64,000 nt of DNA from Dehalococcoidia bacterium (lineage in GTDB: Bacteria > Chloroflexota > Dehalococcoidia > Dehalococcoidales > UBA3254), in the NCBI GenBank assembly GCA_025361145.1, contig JANYAV010000018.1:62001-126000 (forward strand). Direction: 5' to 3'. The notes under the pieces were generated by a model. That model worked only from the letters and a program-made list of their open reading frames with translations, was not told the DNA's origin and searched no databases. Of this stretch, positions 8,925-61,057 are shown in pieces (position 1 is the first letter of the stretch; each line of letters begins with the position of its first letter). The translations under genes and the position numbers were made by a program.

Positions 8925-9821
8925 CTATTTAAAAAGTTCGGGATGAATTATTTGGGCCATTTGTTCCAGAGCGTCAATGGTGCGGGGTGTGGTACGGCCG
9001 AAAATGTCCGTATTAACCTGGTAGACACGGTTATTTTTCAAGGCATCGGTAGCCTGGAAGCGGGGTTCATTTTTTAGAAACTGATAAGAAACAGCCTGAT
9101 CGCCCATACTGCTCAGCACCACAATGATCTCAGGATTGCGCTCAATGGCGGTTTCGAGATTGATAGTAGCGTTGGCTTCCAGGTCTGCGGCGATGTTAAC
9201 GCCGCCGGCTTTAACGATCAAATCGTCGATCATACTACCGTGGCCGACAGTCCAGAGAGGGTCATGCCAGGTGACGAAAAAGACCCGGGGCTTGGCGGCG
9301 CTGGCAGTTTGCTGTTTCACATCGATAATGCGTCGATCAAGGGCTTCAACCAGCGCAGCAGCTTCAGCCTTCTTTCCCGTGACCCTGCCAATCAGATCAA
9401 TATCTGCCAGTAGAGAGTCAAGGTTGGGAGCTGCCAGTCCTAAGACGGGAATCCCCAGCTTCTCAAAGGCCGGGATCACATCCTTTTTATGGATGTTGTC
9501 CGCCAGGATCAGATCTGGGTTCAGTGATACCACTTTTTCCAGGTCTACTTTGCTGAATTCCGATACTTTGGGTTTATCAAGGGCGGCGGGAGGGTAATTA
9601 CAGTAAGTAGTTACCCCGATCAAGCGGTCTTCCAGTCCCAGAGCATAAACGATTTCAGTATTCGAGGGAGAGAGGGAGATAATACGCTGGGGGATTCCGT
9701 TGATCTGTACCGTCCGGCCCAGGTCGTCGGTGTAATTGCCTTGCGTTACTGGGGTTGTACAGCCTGCCAGAGTTAAAACAACTAATAAAAGGCTCAGTGC
9801 TAATAAGGAAAAACGTTTCAT
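8925..9821 (-). CDS. btuF: Corrinoid-binding lipoprotein (BtuF-like)
   Basis: A 298-residue periplasmic-binding-fold protein with an N-terminal lipoprotein signal ending in LAGC, so Cys21 would be lipidated. The mature protein has the BtuF/FhuD pattern: DDLGRTVQI, PQRIISLSPSNTEIVYALG near residues 44-62, GVTTYCNYPPAA, and VSLNPDLILAD. It would capture corrinoids outside the membrane and deliver them to the BtuC-like permease. It is the first gene after the cobalamin riboswitch and terminator; an AAGGA ribosome site lies about 9 bases before the ATG. Confidence 0.93.
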   Translation of the reverse strand: MKRFSLLALSLLLVVLTLAGCTTPVTQGNYTDDLGRTVQINGIPQRIISLSPSNTEIVYALGLEDRLIGVTTYCNYPPAALDKPKVSEFSKVDLEKVVSLNPDLILADNIHKKDVIPAFEKLGIPVLGLAAPNLDSLLADIDLIGRVTGKKAEAAALVEALDRRIIDVKQQTASAAKPRVFFVTWHDPLWTVGHGSMIDDLIVKAGGVNIAADLEANATINLETAIERNPEIIVVLSSMGDQAVSYQFLKNEPRFQATDALKNNRVYQVNTDIFGRTTPRTIDALEQMAQIIHPELFK

Positions 9822-9889: not shown

Positions 9890-9960
9890 CCAACCACCCC
9901 AGATCCTTCGCTTCGCTCCAGGATGACAGCCCCCCAATCAGTTCTTGGAGGCATCCCGAT
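9890..9960. repeat. Dispersed GGAGCGAAGCGAAGGATCTC-type intergenic repeat
   Basis: Read on the minus strand this contains GTCATCCTGGAGCGAAGCGA followed by AGGATCTGGGGTGG. The same module, with small changes, recurs at about 26511-26720, 28246-28384, 36357-36470, 38618-38800, 52560-52612 and 60508-60548. It lies in the leader between the terminator and btuF. Confidence 0.75.
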
Positions 9961-10049: not shown

Positions 10050-10185
10050 TTGGCTGTGTCCCACCTCCTTTCCCGCGGAGGAATTCCTGACTCAGCGTTC
10101 TGGCTTGCCCGGTTTCCCGGGATTACAGCAGGCGGTACTGCGCCGGATTTACACCGGCTTGCTGTCTGAGTCTAAATGTTCTATT
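10050..10185 (-). promoter_or_regulatory. Cobalamin (B12) riboswitch
   Basis: The minus strand carries the conserved cobalamin aptamer core: AAGCCGGTGTAAATCCGGCG then CAGTACCGCCTGCTGTAATC, a CCCGGG/CCGGG-type stem, and AAGCCAGAACGCTGAGTCAG in place of the B12 box region. A perfect terminator hairpin follows about 10 bases downstream. It controls the btuFCD-cbiB-cobD-cobT-cobS-cobC-cobU operon; with ligand bound, transcription should stop before btuF. Exact ends are approximate. Confidence 0.9.
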
Positions 10186-10277
10186 AATTATCACAATACA
10201 GGAAAAATAAATAAAAAACAAGAAATAAAAAATAAGAAAAATATTACCAAATAAGAAATAAAGTGCAAGTAACCAAA

Positions 10278-10360
10278 AGAGTAAAGGAGACCGGGGTTTT
10301 ATAAGGTGACACCTTACTATTAAGGAGAGAAGGACGCAAGGTGGCATCTTTACCGAGAGA
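10278..10360. repeat. REP-like paired palindrome element (copy 1)
   Basis: A pair of short palindromes, AAGGTGACACCTT (10303-10315) and AAGGTGGCATCTT (10338-10350), lies in inverted relation, with the flank GGGGTTTTATAAGG on one side and TTTACC on the other. The same layout recurs at 10995-11075, at 31940-32018 in the other orientation and five times at 55763-56134. A related TGCAAGG-ACGGA-CCTTGCA palindrome follows at 10406-10424. The 10186-10517 gap holds these repeats and the presumed riboswitch promoter, with no gene seen. Confidence 0.75.
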
Positions 10361-10517
10361 GGAAAGGGCACAAGGGGAAAAGGACAGGATGTAATGGTTG
10401 GATTCTGCAAGGACGGACCTTGCAGAGAGGGGTATACAATTACGTTATTAATTCTGTTAATATATAGGCAACTGGGTATGCCCTGTCCATGCCCATGAAT
10501 TAGCGCAGGAGGAAGCC

Positions 10518-10925
10518 ATGGACAAACCTGGTACATATTCCATTACGGAGGCCGCTGAACTGCTCAAGCTCAGCCCGAAGACTATCCGGCGCTATATTAA
10601 AGCCGGGAAATTGCCCTCTACCAAGGTGCCAACCAAATTTGGCGATGAGTACCGCATTACCGAAATCCCGCAGGCTTTGAAAGAGGAAGCGGATGTTCAG
10701 GCTGAGAGCCAGTCTAAAGTTGAAATAGTGCCGGTTGCCCAGCCCTCTTCCACACTGGACGCTCAGTTTTTGTATCAGGAAAATATGCGGCTGATGGCCC
10801 AGCTCGGAGCGGCCACTGAAAGGCTGCGGCAGATGGAAGACAAACTGAAGTTATTGGAAGCGCCTAAAGAAGAAGCGGCGGCCGTTCACCGTCCATGGTG
10901 GAAGAGGCTGTTCGGGAGAGCTTAG
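10518..10925 (+). CDS. MerR/excisionase-type HTH protein with C-terminal coiled coil
   Basis: A 135-residue protein. Residues 6-52 form a winged-helix HTH of the MerR/excisionase class (SITEAAELLKLSPKTIRRYI, then KAGKLPSTKVPTKFGDEYRI). A linker rich in Ala, Glu and Gln follows, then a predicted coiled coil (YQENMRLMAQLGAATERLRQ onward, about residues 90-118) and a basic aromatic tail RPWWKRLFGRA. It has a good GGAGGA ribosome site. A paralogue with the same plan lies at 60611-61057, also ending in a Trp-rich basic tail. It may bind DNA as a dimer and perhaps touch the membrane through the tail. REP-like elements sit on both sides. Target unknown. Confidence 0.8.
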   Translation: MDKPGTYSITEAAELLKLSPKTIRRYIKAGKLPSTKVPTKFGDEYRITEIPQALKEEADVQAESQSKVEIVPVAQPSSTLDAQFLYQENMRLMAQLGAATERLRQMEDKLKLLEAPKEEAAAVHRPWWKRLFGRA

Positions 10926-10994: not shown

Positions 10995-11075
10995 AGGAGA
11001 CGGAGGTTTTTATAAGGTCTCACCTTACATAGGGAAAAAGGAGCGCAAGATGAGACCTTTACCAAAAGAGGGAAT
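10995..11075. repeat. REP-like paired palindrome element (copy 2)
   Basis: AAGGTCTCACCTT (11013-11025) and its near-complement AAGATGAGACCTT (11047-11059) could fold as one hairpin or as two small ones. The flanks GGAGGTTTTTATAAGG and CTTTACC match copy 1. A further palindromic segment with AAGGAGTCTCCTC and GACTCCTTGAG follows at 11112-11166; related sequences recur near 17940 and 55628. No gene is seen in 10926-11238. Confidence 0.75.
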
Positions 11076-11238
11076 GGGAAAATAAGGTCGAACCTGCAAA
11101 TGGGACTGCCTCAAGGAGTCTCCTCGCAGGCAGGAGTTTTTTGGAGGCAAGGAAGACTCCTTGAGAAACCCGAAGCGCGAATAAGCCAATATATTTTTCT
11201 ATGTAATATAATCTCAGGTTTTGGGAGGAATGGTGGAA

Positions 11239-28245: not shown

Positions 28246-28516
28246 GCCCCATTTGTGGTGTCATTCTGGAGTCTCTTTATTGGTGTCATTCTGGAGTCCC
28301 GATTTTATCGGGACGAAGAATCTGGAGGAGGGGATGAAAACCCCGCCACCCTGAGATGCTTCGCTTCGCTCCAGCATGACAACCCCGTGTTACCTTCTAA
28401 ACTCGAAACTCATTACCCCCCTTTACATCCTCTTTTGCATATAATATAATGTCCAAAGTCGCGCATAAGGCGTGCCGCAGGTCCCGGCTGAGTCCCGATT
28501 TTATCGGGACGAATCG
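28246..28516. repeat. Cluster of dispersed intergenic repeats upstream of the S-layer gene
   Basis: Two copies of GTCATTCTGGAGTC (28259 and 28285), the hairpin TCCCGATTTTATCGGGA twice (about 28298 and 28492), GAATCTGGAGGAGGGGATGA, and an inverted GATGCTTCGCTTCGCTCCAG module. Apart from these and the promoter below, I see no gene in 28135-28922. Confidence 0.7.
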
Positions 28517-31897: not shown

Positions 31898-31924
31898 ACA
31901 GCTAAAAGCTATCAGCTTAAAGCT

Positions 31925-32018
31925 TTCTCAAAAGGTCTCACCTTAAGGTCTCACCTTAAGGTGAGACCCTTTGTGCCTGGCAAGGTGAGACCTTATAAAA
32001 CCCTGGTCTCCTTTTCTC
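31925..32018. repeat. REP-like palindrome cluster (copy 3)
   Basis: Tandem AAGGTCTCACCTT units and their complement AAGGTGAGACC, then CAAGGTGAGACCTTATAAAA followed by CCCTGGTCTCC. This is the paired-palindrome element in the reverse orientation to copies 1 and 2. A further partial copy (CAAGGTGAGACCCTGCGAG) is at 32329-32347. Confidence 0.8.
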
Positions 32019-32322: not shown

Positions 32323-32409
32323 CCTATACAAGGTGAGACCCTGCGAGATCAATCCTGGCTTCGCCTATCTGCTTTGAGCTATAAGCTTTAAGCTTATAGC
32401 TCTGTTATA

Positions 32410-36289: not shown

Positions 36290-36470
36290 GGGTTTCTTAA
36301 GGACGGACTTTGCTTTCGAGACTAACGAGACGCAAGGTCCGTCCTTGTGAAAGTACCATTCCCCTCCAGATTCTTCGGCCTCGCCATCCGAGGCCTCCAG
36401 AATGACACCTCCTGGTTAAGTCCGGTGATTGTCATGCTGGAGCGAAGCGAAGCATCTCAGGGTGGGGTTC
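36290..36470. repeat. Palindrome and dispersed repeat cluster
   Basis: AAGGACGGACTTTGC (36293 onward) faces GCAAGGTCCGTCCTT (about 36330-36348), making a long hairpin of the AAGG/CCTT type. CTCCAGATTCTTCGGCCTCG and GTCATGCTGGAGCGAAGCGA modules follow. No gene is seen between the antitoxin and 36490. Confidence 0.7.
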
Positions 36471-38617: not shown

Positions 38618-38800
38618 TTTGTCATGCTGGAGCGAAGCGAAGCATCTCAGGGTGGCGGGACTTGTACCTCATCCTCCCCTCCAGATTCTTCAGCCTCGCC
38701 GTTCGAGGCTTCCAGAATGACACCAAGATCAAGATTGGTCTACTTGATTTTACAGGGGTTGTCATGCTGGAGTGAAGCGAATCATCTCAGGGTAGTTGGG
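38618..38800. repeat. Three copies of the GCTGGAGCGAAGCGAAGC repeat
   Basis: GTCATGCTGGAGCGAAGCGA at 38620, an inverted CTCCAGATTCTTCAGCCTCG at 38689, and GTCATGCTGGAGTGAAGCGA at 38760. The rest of 38377-38861 is AT-rich sequence with AGCTATGAGCTTT-type palindromes and no gene. Confidence 0.7.
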
Positions 38801-51117: not shown

Positions 51118-51291
51118 ATTGTCACGCACACAAGGTCTCACCTTGTGAGATTAACTCGTAACTTGTTTTGGATTTGAATATTAGAGTTTTTCTCTCGCAG
51201 CTTATAGCTTTAAGCTTTTTACTTGACACCTTTCAGAGTCCCTGATAAACTTTTCAGGTGGGCTGCGCTAGTAGCCTTTATTTTTCCCCGG

Positions 51292-51365: not shown

Positions 51366-51435
51366 CTTCCTCTTTACATTTGCCCCCATACTTGCTTTAA
51401 TTAGCCATAATTGCCAAGCTTAAATATTTGGTGCG

Positions 51436-51473
51436 CTTTTAGCTTTTAGCTTACAGCTTTAAGCTATTCTAAG
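51436..51473. repeat. AGCTT-rich palindrome before rmuC
   Basis: TTTTAGCTTTTAGCTTACAG followed by CTTTAAGCTATT is a self-complementary AT-rich repeat. Related palindromes occur at about 28640-28672, 31897-31925, 32370-32400, 51197-51217, 59237-59268, 60413-60435, 60564-60592 and 61061-61083, often just before a gene start. Confidence 0.7.
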
Positions 51474-55618: not shown

Positions 55619-55762
55619 CGTTATTCTTAAGGAGTCCTCCTTGCCTCCAAAACCCCTTGTTGCAAGGAGACTCCTTAAAATTAGGTTTTCTGTTTGGTGT
55701 TTAAGGTTTAGAATTTGGATATTACCCTTGAGGGAGAGGAATTAAAGGTGAGGGGGTATTTC

Positions 55763-56134
55763 TCCCGGTAAAGGTCTCATCTTGCACCCCCTTTTCGCCT
55801 GCGTAAGGTGAGACCTTATAAAACTCTCGTTTCCCGGTAAAGGTCTCATCTTGCCCCCCTTTTCGCCTGCGTAAGGTGAGACCTTATAAAACTCTCGTTT
55901 CCCGGTAAAGGTCTCATCTTGCACCCCTTTTCGCCTGCGTAAGGTGAGACCTTATAAAACTCTCGTCTCCCTTGCCCGTTTTTCCCGGTAAAGGTCTCAT
56001 CTTGCACCCCTTTTCGCCTGGGTAAGGTGAGACCTTATAAAACTCTCGTTTCCCGGTAAAGGTCTCATCTTGCCCCCCTTTTCGCCTGCGTAAGGTGAGA
56101 CCTTATAAAACTCTCGTCTCCCTTGCCCGTTTTG
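55763..56134. repeat. Five-unit tandem array of the REP-like hairpin element
   Basis: Five units of 68-69 bp start at 55763, 55832, 55900, 55983 and 56051. Each reads CCCGGTAAAGGTCTCATCTT, a short GC/T-rich loop (CACCCCTTTTCGCCTGCG), then TAAGGTGAGACCTTATAAAA and CTCTCG. The two AAGGT arms pair, with a T-G wobble kept in all units. After units 3 and 5 there is an extra CTCCCTTGCCCGTTTT, so the array looks like a three-unit and a two-unit block. No spacer varies as in CRISPR, and no gene is seen in 55619-56194. Confidence 0.92.
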
Positions 56135-56194: not shown

Positions 56195-57016
56195 ATGCCC
56201 GAACTTCCCGAAGTTGAAACCACCATCAACGACCTAAAGCCCCATCTGACCGGTCTGCGTATCAAATCGGTCGAGGTGTTGGCGCCCAAAACCATTGAAA
56301 CCCCCTCTGCCGCAGAATTCGCCGCCGGCCTCAAGGACAGAACTATCATTAGACTCTCTCGCCGCGGCAAGCACCTGCTTTTTACCCTGGATGACCACCG
56401 CGTCTTGATCATTCACCTCAGGATGACCGGCTCGCTGTTAATTAAAAAGGCTTCTGAAGCGCCGGACAAATTCGTGAGGGTGATTATTAGATTCGCGGAC
56501 GGCACGCTCTTGCATTTCAGGGATGTCCGCCGCTTCGGGCGGATGTGGCTGGTGGAGGATGAGGCAGCGGTGGTCGGCAAACTGGGCGTTGAACCCTTCA
56601 GCCCTGAATTTACACCTGCCTTCTTGAAGGGTCTGCTTAAAGGCCGTCAGACACCCATCAAAAGCCTTCTCTTGAATCAAACTCTGATCGCCGGTATCGG
56701 CAATATGTATGCGGATGAAGCCCTGCACCACGCCCGTTTGCATCCTCTGCTTCCGGCTGGCGGTTTGAACAAGGCGGAAATTTCCGCCCTGCATGAAGCT
56801 ATACTGCACGTCTTAAGTAAAGGCATCAAGAATAAAGGCGCCAGCACTGACACTTATTTCCGCCCTTCCGGCAGTAAAGGATCGGCCCATCTTGAGTTTC
56901 AGGTCGCCCACCGCAAAGGCCAGCCCTGTTCCTGCGGCTGTGTTATAGAGCGCATCACCGTCCAGCAGCGCGGCACCTTCTTCTGCCCCCACTGCCAGCC
57001 CCTCTCAAAAAGGTGA
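56195..57016 (+). CDS. mutM: Formamidopyrimidine-DNA glycosylase (MutM/Fpg)
   Basis: A 273-residue base-excision repair enzyme that removes oxidised purines. MPELPEVETT gives the catalytic Pro1 (after Met removal) and Glu2; the helix-two-turn-helix contains LLNQTLIAGIGNMYADEALH, and the C-terminal zinc finger is CSCGCVIERITVQQRGTFFC then PHC, a slight variant of the usual spacing. The start at 56195 has AAGGAG 8 bases upstream and is required to expose Pro1; a longer frame exists but is wrong. Downstream REP-like palindromes begin at the stop codon. Confidence 0.97.
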   Translation: MPELPEVETTINDLKPHLTGLRIKSVEVLAPKTIETPSAAEFAAGLKDRTIIRLSRRGKHLLFTLDDHRVLIIHLRMTGSLLIKKASEAPDKFVRVIIRFADGTLLHFRDVRRFGRMWLVEDEAAVVGKLGVEPFSPEFTPAFLKGLLKGRQTPIKSLLLNQTLIAGIGNMYADEALHHARLHPLLPAGGLNKAEISALHEAILHVLSKGIKNKGASTDTYFRPSGSKGSAHLEFQVAHRKGQPCSCGCVIERITVQQRGTFFCPHCQPLSKR

Positions 57017-57041
57017 GACCTTAAGGTCTCACCTTTTGTGG
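57010..57041. repeat. REP palindrome on the 3' side of the RAYT gene
   Basis: AAAAGGTGAGACCTTAAGGT followed by CTCACCTTTTGTGGC is a perfect long palindrome made of two AAGGTGAGACCTT half-units head to head. It overlaps the end of mutM and abuts the RAYT stop. Confidence 0.88.
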
Positions 57042-57713
57042 CTAAAACTCAAATTCCGACTCTTCAAAATGAGGATTGTATTCCGCTACAAACCTTTCGT
57101 AGGAAAGTGCTGAATTTGTTTTCGAGAAAAAAGATAGTATCTCTTCCGGATGCACCCAACTTGTTTTTCTCAAACCCAAATAATCCTGAAAAGAACAGGG
57201 AAAATCCTTTTGGTCCGTGTTGTCTTGCGCTAAAGCTTGCTTGTGTATGTAGCGGGTAATATGCAGATATTGTGCTTCGTCGGTCATCAGCACCGCTTTG
57301 TAGACACCCTGGTATAATTTGCCTACCCGGTCATGGCTCCGATTGAAATACATCGTGTACCTGGTGCCAAGCGAACTCATGAATCGATCAATTCCATCAA
57401 TGGAGGTTTGTTTTAAGAACAGATGAAAATGATTCGGCATCAGGCAATAAGCTAATAAATGGATCTCTGAACTGTAGTTCTTTAAGTTTAGTGTACTAAA
57501 TGCGCTGTTTTTCTCTTTATAAGAGGACTGGGGATCCTGGAATAATTTTACTAATCCACTTTCGTCTTTAGGTGATAGATACTGTTTCAAATAATTAATA
57601 AAAACTGCATAGTCCTGTTCATCCACGAAGATATCTCTCTTTTCGACCCCTCGATTGTAGATATGATAATAGCCTCCTTCAACATATGTTTTTTGTGTAT
57701 TCTTCGCTGGCAT
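57042..57713 (-). CDS. REP-associated tyrosine transposase (RAYT, IS200-like Y1 family)
   Basis: A 223-residue HUH single-strand transposase. GGYYHIYNRGVEKRDIF (about 13-29) opens the domain, the HUH motif is His95-Phe96-His97 in CLMPNHFHLFLKQ, and the likely nucleophile is Tyr155 in YLHITRYIHKQA. Members with this sequence are single-copy and bind nearby REP hairpins. Both ends of the gene touch palindromes of AAGGTGAGACCTT type, the same core found in at least eight other places here. It lies between mutM and a CoA-transferase gene. An intact frame suggests it is functional or recently so. Confidence 0.92.
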   Translation of the reverse strand: MPAKNTQKTYVEGGYYHIYNRGVEKRDIFVDEQDYAVFINYLKQYLSPKDESGLVKLFQDPQSSYKEKNSAFSTLNLKNYSSEIHLLAYCLMPNHFHLFLKQTSIDGIDRFMSSLGTRYTMYFNRSHDRVGKLYQGVYKAVLMTDEAQYLHITRYIHKQALAQDNTDQKDFPCSFQDYLGLRKTSWVHPEEILSFFSKTNSALSYERFVAEYNPHFEESEFEF

Positions 57714-57737
57714 GAATCATATTATACCACATTATTA

Positions 57738-57772
57738 AAAAGGTCTCACCTTAAGGTGAGACCTTTTGAGGC
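57738..57772. repeat. REP palindrome on the 5' side of the RAYT gene
   Basis: AAAAAGGTCTCACCTTAAGG then TGAGACCTTTTGAGG. The same half-units as at 57010, in the opposite order, followed by the shared GTGGCTAAA/GAGGCTAAA tail in both copies. It lies between the RAYT start and the CoA-transferase stop. Confidence 0.88.
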
Positions 57773-58870: not shown

Positions 58871-58896
58871 CTAACCCGATTATACCCCTTCTGACC

Positions 58897-59120
58897 AAGA
58901 TACAATAACCAAGATACAATAACCAAGATACAATGACCAAGATACAATAACCAAGATACAATAACCAAGATACAATAACCAAGATACAATGACCAAGATA
59001 CAAAGGCCAAGATACAATAACCAAGATACAATGACCAAGATACAATGACCAAGATACAAAGGCCAAGATACAATGACCAAGATACAATGACCAAGATACA
59101 ATAACCAAGATACAATGACC
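58897..59120. repeat. 14-bp minisatellite, 16 units
   Basis: Sixteen consecutive 14-base units of AAGATACAA plus a variable end: TAACC (7 units), TGACC (7) or AGGCC (2). The order is A A G A A A G C A G G C G G A G, where A, G and C name the three endings. Because 14 is not divisible by 3 and no unit contains a stop on the minus strand, all three minus frames are open through it; none encodes a real protein. It lies 26 bases before the CoA-transferase start. Confidence 0.97.
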
Positions 59121-59267
59121 AAACATGATGGTATTTGAAAATAATGCGCTAACAGATGGAAATTGGTTTGGTGGTAGTTGGTGATATGAATCCTGGTGAT
59201 TGGAACTTGTTTGGTGCTCGTATCTTGTGAACTTTGAGCTTTTAGCTTATAGCTTTAAGCTGATAGC

Positions 59268-59342
59268 TGGAGCGGGAGACGGGATTCGAACCCGCGACTT
59301 CCTCCTTGGGAAGGAGACGTGCTACCACTGCACTACTCCCGC
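59268..59342 (-). tRNA. tRNA-Gly (anticodon CCC)
   Basis: On the minus strand GCGGGAG pairs with CTCCCGC. The D-arm is GTGCAGTGGTAGCAC, the anticodon arm TCTCC-TTCCCAA-GGAGG gives CCC, and the T-arm is GCGGGTTCGAATCCCGT. CCA is encoded (59268-59270). It complements tRNA-Gly(TCC) at 26150. Confidence 0.93.
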
Positions 59343-60324: not shown

Positions 60325-60548
60325 AGGGTCTCACCTTGTTAGGCTCGCTTGCGCGTCAGGGTCTCACCCTGCTCAAACAACGAGGCTAGCAGGGTCTCAC
60401 CCTGTATGAAAGCTTGAAGCTGGAAGCTTAAAGCTCGTATAATAGGAAAACCAGGCAGGAAATTCCGCCTGGATCGATATCAAGCCAGGAAAAACTGACA
60501 GCATTGCTGTCATCCTGGAGCGAAGCGAAGGATCTCAGGGTGGTTGGG
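60325..60548. repeat. Palindrome and dispersed-repeat cluster before the second HTH gene
   Basis: Three short hairpins with CTC centres: CAGGGTCTCACCTTG, CAGGGTCTCACCCTG (60357 onward) and CAGGGTCTCACCCTG (60391 onward). They use AGGGT/ACCCT arms in place of AAGGT/ACCTT, a covarying form. GTCATCCTGGAGCGAAGCGA and AGGATCTCAGGGTGGTTGGG follow at 60508-60548, and AGCTTAAAGC palindromes on either side. No gene is seen in 60232-60610. Confidence 0.75.
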
Positions 60549-60610
60549 ATCACTCGAAACTACACAGCTTAAAGCTTTTAGCTTTAAGCTCTTTTTACAG
60601 GAGAAAAACT

Positions 60611-61057
60611 TTGGACGAACTATCCGTAACCCAAGTCGCAGAACTTTTAGGCAAGACCGACCGCACCATCCGTAACTATATCAAGGAAGGCCGCATCAAA
60701 GCCCGCCATGTCGAAAACCAGTTCGGCTGGGAATACCGGATCTACGACCTGGGCGAGTTTACAGCGGGTGAAACCCCGGCGGAAAAGAGCGCGGAAACCA
60801 GCACCCTTCCCGCTCTTGAAAATAAAGCTGAAACCGCCTTGCAGATCGTTACTAAGGAAAACCTGCGCCTCTGGGATGAATATAAGCAGCTCCGTGAAGC
60901 CAACAACCGCCTGGCTTACGACCTCGGCGCTCGCGACCAGCGCATCAAAGACCTCGAAAAAGAGCTGGAAAACTCCAAGCTTAAAGTCGCAGACCCCGAT
61001 CTATCGGGACTTAAAGCTGGCCACTGGTGGCAATGGTGGGGTAAAACAACCAGCTAG
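60611..61057 (+). CDS. MerR/excisionase-type HTH protein with coiled coil (paralogue of 10518)
   Basis: A 148-residue protein with the same plan as the 10518 gene: an N-terminal HTH (LSVTQVAELLGKTDRTIRNY, IKEGRIKARHVENQFGWEYR, residues 4-43), an Ala/Glu/Thr linker, a coiled coil (TKENLRLWDEYKQLREANNR then LAYDLGARDQRIKDLEKELE, about 86-130) and a Trp-rich end GHWWQWWGKTT. The start is TTG at 60611, after ACAGGAGAAA. The shared Trp-rich end in both proteins is unusual for a DNA-binding protein and may contact a membrane or partner. Confidence 0.8.
   Translation: MDELSVTQVAELLGKTDRTIRNYIKEGRIKARHVENQFGWEYRIYDLGEFTAGETPAEKSAETSTLPALENKAETALQIVTKENLRLWDEYKQLREANNRLAYDLGARDQRIKDLEKELENSKLKVADPDLSGLKAGHWWQWWGKTTS

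Follow-up and report, generated by a model that had tools for sequence, protein, structure and literature searches.

The window analysed here is a 64,000-nt stretch of a contig from a Dehalococcoidia bacterium. Within it, the junction between mutM and a CaiB-like gene is occupied by a gene for a REP-associated-type transposase (RAYT1) and its flanking palindromes (Table 1). Both flanks are perfect 30-bp palindromes, each consisting of two hairpins (5-bp stem, 3-nt loop) with opposite loops, and the stop codon of mutM sits within the downstream one. On the plus strand each palindrome is trailed by G(T/A)GGCTAAA, so that TTTAGCC(T/A)C precedes each of them on the RAYT1 coding strand. The tag after the downstream palindrome, GTGGCTAAA (reverse complement TTTAGCCAC), holds the RAYT1 stop codon, and the tag after the upstream palindrome is GAGGCTAAA (reverse complement TTTAGCCTC). 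A first-pass annotation had described a gene with an HFH motif and Tyr155, bracketed by palindromes sharing a GGCTAAA tail, and all of these elements were found as described. The GT[AG]G foot of a canonical GTAG REPtron was absent, by eye, from the hairpins flanking RAYT1 and its two paralogues (RAYT2 and RAYT3, described below), which counts against the reading that we favor; the bases 5′ of the hairpins were CCTCAA/CCACAA (RAYT1), TTCCTGC (RAYT2) and GCTTCAA/GATTCAA (RAYT3).

Table 1. Coordinates in the window of RAYT1, its flanking palindromes and the related dispersed repeats.
Feature	Position	Strand	Evidence or remarks
RAYT1, 223-aa Y1/HUH REP-associated-type transposase	57042..57713	minus	PF01797; AlphaFold2 model; H95-F-H97 and Y155
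Downstream double palindrome AAAAGGTGAGACCTTAAGGTCTCACCTTTT	57008..57037		ssDNA fold -13 kcal/mol, z -5.3
Upstream double palindrome AAAAGGTCTCACCTTAAGGTGAGACCTTTT	57738..57767		ssDNA fold -13 kcal/mol, z -7.1
Five-unit REPIN-like array (AAGGTCTCATCTT - 20-21 nt - AAGGTGAGACCTT)	55763..56134		between polA and mutM
Single REPIN-like unit	10995..11080		RAYT1 core
REPIN-like unit (AAGGTGACACCTT ... AAGGTGGCATCTT)	10280..10370		RAYT1-type backbone but RAYT3 core
RAYT2-type palindrome (CTGCAAGGACGGACCTTGCAG)	10409..10421		
RAYT2-type palindrome AAGGTCCGTCCTT	36334..36346		
Four clustered RAYT1-type palindromes	31932..31994		tail-to-tail and inverted pairs
RAYT1-type variant AAGGTGAGACCCT	32330..32342		
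Lone RAYT1-type palindrome within CACAAGGTGAGACCTTGTG	51132..51144		
Three palindromes, variant CAGGGTGAGACCCTG / CAAGGTGAGACCCTG	60325..60405		

RAYT1 matched the PF01797 profile at 34.2 bits (cut-off 23) and has the HUH motif and catalytic Tyr of the Y1 fold that are expected of a RAYT/TnpA_REP; His95, His97 and Tyr155 were invariant in an alignment of 24 relatives. The AlphaFold2 model (mean pLDDT 91.4, 32 input sequences) had as its top solved-structure match 4er8, the E. coli RAYT with its REP hairpin (E 3.3e-6, probability 1.00), followed by the TnpA proteins of IS608 and ISDra2. Because the superposition on 4er8 was loose overall (rmsd 9), it supports the family and not the structural details. 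A phmmer search of RAYT1 against PDB sequences gave no match, whereas a profile search reached ISDra2 TnpA. The NCBIfam equivalog model for REP-associated transposases (NF047646, REP_Tyr_transpos) was matched by all 24 subfamily members, with E values up to 0.001; RAYT1 scored 35.4 bits, under the curated cut-off of 80, and this too counts against our favored reading. Y1_Tnp was the sole domain found, with no C-terminal HTH or DnaA-like domain of the TIRYT/subclass 2.1 kind, and no tnpB was seen beside the gene. RAYT1 is single in the genome, as expected of a low-copy gene and not of a multicopy insertion sequence with many near-identical gene-bearing units. Its GC content is 0.39, compared with 0.55-0.56 in the neighboring genes.

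The flanking palindromes recur well beyond the RAYT1 locus. GGTGAGACC was found 19 times in the window against 0.33 expected, a count reached by 0 of 100 shuffles, and the 13-mer containing the RAYT1 core, AAGGTGAGACCTT, has 29 copies across the 1.70-Mb genome (0 for the reversed-pattern control). Relatives without a RAYT do not share this abundance: the 13-mer occurs 0-1 times per genome in 150 relatives from the same order and is absent from a genome of the same genus (G001). These counts strongly support the earlier proposal that the RAYT is paired with cognate dispersed palindromes. Three of the 29 sites fall under an ORF of 120 aa or more, the remaining 26 outside any such ORF; the copies at C14:68388 and C16:12746, in seemingly genuine coding sequence, may be chance matches. 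Palindrome clusters other than those at the RAYT genes crowd near RAYT1, where 3.8% of the genome holds 4 of the 15 in a list compiled by hand (binomial p 0.002). The assembly consists of 25 contigs, and copies lie near the ends of C1, C4, C5, C21 and C24. Between positions 9500 and 62000, Rfam at the gathering threshold returned only tRNAs and a cobalamin riboswitch, and the repeats thus fit no curated RNA family. The first-pass annotation had assigned one core to all of the dispersed sites that it listed in the window. The copies themselves are real, but the site at 10303 carries AAGGTGACACCTT, the core of RAYT3 and not of RAYT1; those at 32329 and 60325-60405 carry a AGGGTGAGACCCT-type variant; and those at 55763-56134 form five tandem inverted pairs rather than single palindromes.

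Several other features of the window were recorded alongside these repeats. A AGCTTNNAGCTNNNAGCTT-based repeat has 28 matches, many of them overlapping, against 0.03 expected, and often lies beside RAYT1-type palindromes (31900-31925, 32370-32402, 51198-51217, 51434-51466, 59230-59269, 60410-60435 and 60566-60591). A 27-bp dispersed repeat, GTCATSCTGGAGCGAAGCGAAGSATCT, has five copies in the window where 0 are expected (9901-9927, 28354-28380, 36431-36457, 38621-38647 and 60509-60535). Hairpins of the AAGGAGTCTCCTT / AAGGAGACTCCTT kind occur at 55630-55676 and 11100-11165; their core also flanks a Microgenomates RAYT (locus L050), and no cognate RAYT was seen in the present genome. Two related MerR/HTH_17 proteins (10518-10925 and 60611-61057; 30% identical over 118 aa) have C-terminal tails with Trp, and each adjoins a palindrome group. 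Upstream of the CaiB-like gene and beside a tRNA gene, the 14-bp unit TGACCAAGATACAA is repeated in tandem (16.5 copies, 58892-59122), likely a variable-number repeat. The minus strand carries the cobalamin riboswitch (RF00174, 32.9 bits) at 10077-10212, upstream of a periplasmic-binding-protein-like gene.

Many of the RAYT1-type copies are paired in units of approximately 80 bp with the layout GGAGACCGGGGTTTTAT - AAGGTCTCACCTT - AC(19-23 nt)GC - AAGATGAGACCTT - TACCGAGAG. As in REPINs, these are dispersed, inverted palindrome pairs with near-constant spacing, the spacer, counted between the arms, being mostly 19-23 nt. REPIN populations larger than this one are typical of Pseudomonas. At three places (10303, C2:2885 and C23:8334) the one backbone bears AAGGTGACACCTT and AAGGTGGCA(T/C)CTT in place of the RAYT1 core. 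That units with a RAYT1 core and units with a RAYT3 core have a common backbone indicates that the arms follow the enzyme and the backbone does not. A second, shorter type of copy consists of one hairpin, or of two placed tail to tail, preceded by TTAGC(C/T)(T/A)C. Of 38 sites with this tag, 7 are followed by a real hairpin, against a background of 0.8%; an eighth match, inside the CaiB-like gene, is not a REP and was left out. The tag, which stands beside the RAYT, is missing from the REPIN backbone, so that the hairpin alone is common to the two types of copy, and this counts against our favored reading.

The genome holds two further RAYTs of the same subfamily, RAYT2 (C23:83470) and RAYT3 (C15:97942), and pairwise identity among the three is 51-65%. 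RAYT1 and RAYT3 are sisters in the tree (100/99), with dN of 0.26 and a dS of 2.29 that is near saturation. RAYT3 is flanked by AAGGTGACACCTT and AAGGTGGCACCTT, and its core, AAGGTGACACCTT, has 13 copies in this genome and 0 in the 150 relatives. RAYT2 has TGCAAGGTCCGTCCTTGCA upstream and, in frame, at two places in the C-terminal part of its own gene; its core, AAGGTCCGTCCTT, occurs nine times genome-wide, these two in-frame copies included. Each enzyme therefore has a repeat family of its own, with the core letters TGAGA for RAYT1, TGACA/TGGCA for RAYT3 and TCCGT for RAYT2, and the single RAYT-palindrome pair originally proposed is in fact one of three. A fourth Y1 transposase in this genome (L001, G000:C15:110942-111901; 319 aa), whose C terminus gives a weak DnaA-like match, is of the TIRYT/subclass 2.1 type; a RAYT1-type REPIN lies approximately 230-270 bp upstream of it.

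In the same-genus genome, mutM and the CaiB-like gene converge, their stop codons lying 6 bp apart with no RAYT in between. The polA-mutM junction is 5 bp there, compared with a gap of approximately 0.55 kb here that contains the five-unit REPIN-like array. Accounting for these junctions requires two adjacent gains in the lineage of the RAYT1 genome or losses in that of its relative; we favor gains, since RAYT-family matches are absent from nearly all other relatives. At the 10303/10409 repeats, the neighboring gene is not the same in the two genomes. The RAYT subfamily is present in 2 of 156 genomes of the order. The second of these (G090), from a distant member of the order, contains a broken RAYT with internal stops (L174, C130) together with a piece of a RAYT gene at the end of a contig (L175, C65); both are flanked by TTAGCCTCGCAAGGCGAGGCCTTGCGAGGCTAA-type repeats whose core differs from that of RAYT1, and the palindrome also occurs inside the broken gene. 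Contamination of the assembly was rejected for RAYT1, as the surrounding polA-mutM-caiB region is syntenic with the same-genus genome, and a phage or plasmid origin was rejected because such matches had only about 25-32% identity.

We searched 84,980 species genomes for homologues, listing at least 80 loci; the pattern search leaned on conserved motifs. Among the matches listed, the nearest RAYTs are mostly from Microgenomates (Daviesbacteria, Levybacteria, Woesebacteria, Gottesmanbacteria and others), the best being 64% identical to RAYT1 and from an unnamed bin and the next 60% identical and from Microgenomates. In the tree, RAYT1-3 are nested within a clade otherwise made up of Microgenomates and unnamed bins (100/98 and 99/88, the bootstrap being not fully settled). 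Of 81 RAYT loci, 64 have a match of 13 bp or more between their upstream and downstream flanks, compared with 40 of 3,420 mismatched pairs (chance of approximately 1%), and the cores are locus-specific (TGAGA, TTGAA, TCAGA, CCAGG, GGACG, TGTCA, AGACT, TCTAA and CGAGG). At 13 of the 29 near loci, a copy of the locus's own flank palindrome lies in frame within the RAYT gene, mostly near residue 62 or 160; among cross-pairs the figure is 19 of 812. In genomes of Woesebacteria, Chisholmbacteria, Gottesmanbacteria and UBA10108, dispersed copies match the core of the resident RAYT locus. One Gottesmanbacteria genome (G163) has inverted pairs whose spacer is a constant 29 nt in several cases and 7-10 nt in some, and its RAYT itself has REPINs as flanks. 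No excess of AAGGN5CCTT palindromes was seen in three RAYT-bearing Patescibacterial genomes (G151, G155 and G159), which counts against our favored reading. Given the nesting of RAYT1-3 within a Microgenomates clade and the low GC content of the RAYT1 gene, the simplest explanation is that this RAYT group was horizontally acquired, probably from Microgenomates (Patescibacteria), with the direction of transfer inferred from these sequence data. A working pair had initially been put forward as one that would extend RAYT-REP systems beyond their mainly proteobacterial range. The pairing is, however, no isolated extension of that sort: it was probably passed on from a group that is widespread among the ultrasmall Patescibacteria, and RAYT/REP pairs in several phyla, as well as GTAG repeats in Chloroflexi, have already been published (PMC3733652, PMC6006769).

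We consider it likely that the host maintains RAYT1 at low copy as a Y1 HUH transposase whose substrates are its own palindromes, in a REPtron-like RAYT-REP/REPIN system without a GTAG foot. Alternatively, 57008-57767 could be a conventional IS200-like insertion sequence with a hairpin at each end, and the dispersed palindromes could be decayed ends or MITEs rather than the REPs of a maintained enzyme. The hairpins at both ends, the same mechanistic class, the empty site in the same-genus genome and the GC contrast between the gene and its neighbors are compatible with such an element, but it is an unlikely explanation given that there is only one copy, that the three RAYTs are too divergent to be recent copies, that dN is well under dS with no tnpB seen adjacent, and that most dispersed copies are on a different, REPIN-type backbone. 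It is also quite improbable that a different enzyme, or recombination, moves the REPIN-like repeats and that these have the arm sequence in common with the RAYT flanks only because RAYT units inserted into them. While their backbone (GGAGACC..TTTTAT) is unlike the TTAGC-tagged flanks, and insertion sequences within REPs are on record (PMC8450116), the cores of RAYT1 and RAYT3 share that backbone and track two sister enzymes, and REPINs flank the RAYT itself in the Gottesmanbacteria genome. Finally, bidirectional terminators or other regulatory hairpins lying beside the RAYT by happenstance, as the A-tract/hairpin/T-tract layout between the convergent mutM and RAYT1 and the 26 of 29 sites outside ORFs might suggest, are very unlikely, as the same-genus genome has no such palindromes and the 150 relatives have few, their core varies with the RAYT and also sits inside RAYT genes, and a consensus terminator scan did no better than shuffles and did not include them among its matches; the palindromes may still contribute to termination in a secondary way.

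For the favored RAYT-REP/REPIN system, the chemistry of TnpA_REP (PMC8266576) provides a model for binding, cutting and strand transfer, on which we infer that RAYT1 mobilizes its repeats. RAYT1 would most likely bind the hairpin AAGGT-nnn-ACCTT in single-stranded DNA, for instance in the lagging-strand template. Tyr155 would then cut beside the hairpin at a nearby dinucleotide, with His95 and His97 holding the metal, and joining of the cut strand elsewhere could spread REPs and REPIN pairs between genes. In the short-hairpin enzymes of S. maltophilia and Marinomonas, loop and stem matter strongly (PMC8266576), and the variable loop of the RAYT1-3 hairpins fits with this. In a broader scenario, which we regard as evenly poised between right and wrong, a Patescibacteria-wide RAYT group was passed to a distant free-living lineage, and a hairpin code, AAGGN-nnn-N′CCTT with a variable fifth pair and loop, replaces GTAG; after duplication, the sister enzymes would have split their specificity (TGAGA versus TGACA/TGGCA), with the REPIN arms following on a shared backbone.

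How RAYTs recognize and spread REPs is an unsettled question, and those enzymes that have been assayed come from Proteobacteria and have GTAG-tagged REPs (PMC8266576). In the present case, a single small genome contains three related enzymes with three cores, two of them on one REPIN backbone, making the recognition code testable by swaps, and many Patescibacterial genomes supply more natural core variants. It also presents a striking example of the probable passage of a RAYT-REP system between Patescibacteria and another phylum. Among the top-ranked literature matches, none tied RAYT or REPIN to Patescibacteria or Dehalococcoidia, a result that argues only weakly for such work being absent. 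RAYT relatives that lack GTAG and have palindromic repeats, namely TIRYTs and subclasses 2.6 and 3, have already been described (PMC3733652, PMC6006769).

The RAYT1 system falls within the broad definition of RAYT-REP and outside the canonical one, both for its lack of a GTAG foot and by the NCBI cut-off. With GTAG REPtrons (subclasses 2.2, 2.4, 2.5, 2.7 and 2.8, PMC6006769; S. maltophilia Sm and Marinomonas Mb, PMC8266576) it shares the HUH motif and single Tyr, low copy number, flanking hairpins dispersed genome-wide, one REP family per enzyme and inverted pairs (REPINs). Its short stem is like those of REPtrons Sm and Mb, which have a 3-4 nt loop, and its in-frame REPs inside RAYT genes are as in subclass 2.4 (PMC6006769). 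It differs from GTAG REPtrons in having no GTAG/GGAG foot, in its AAGGN/N′CCTT stem with a variable base pair and loop, in the TTAGC(C/T)(T/A)C tag of some copies, in its Tyr motif (YIHxQA or YIHxNP), in an insert of approximately 50 residues before the HUH strands and in its NF047646 score under the cut-off. TIRYTs/TIRtrons (PMC3733652) and subclasses 2.6 and 3 (PMC6006769) likewise combine a Y1 transposase with non-GTAG inverted repeats, some of these repeats being self-complementary and moderately repeated in the genome, as with RAYT1; however, the majority of TIRYTs are members of subclass 2.1 and have HTH domains at the C terminus and GGGGWSAS motifs, whereas the 223-aa RAYT1 has no such domain. 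Fold and catalytic chemistry are held in common with the TnpA of IS200/IS605 elements (IS608, ISDra2), but RAYT1 is single copy with no tnpB seen, and its hairpins are dispersed without the gene. As in the REPINs of Pseudomonas (PMC3116915), the dispersed unit is two inverted palindromes at a fixed spacing, although here there are tens of copies, without GTAG, and two arm types are carried on one backbone.
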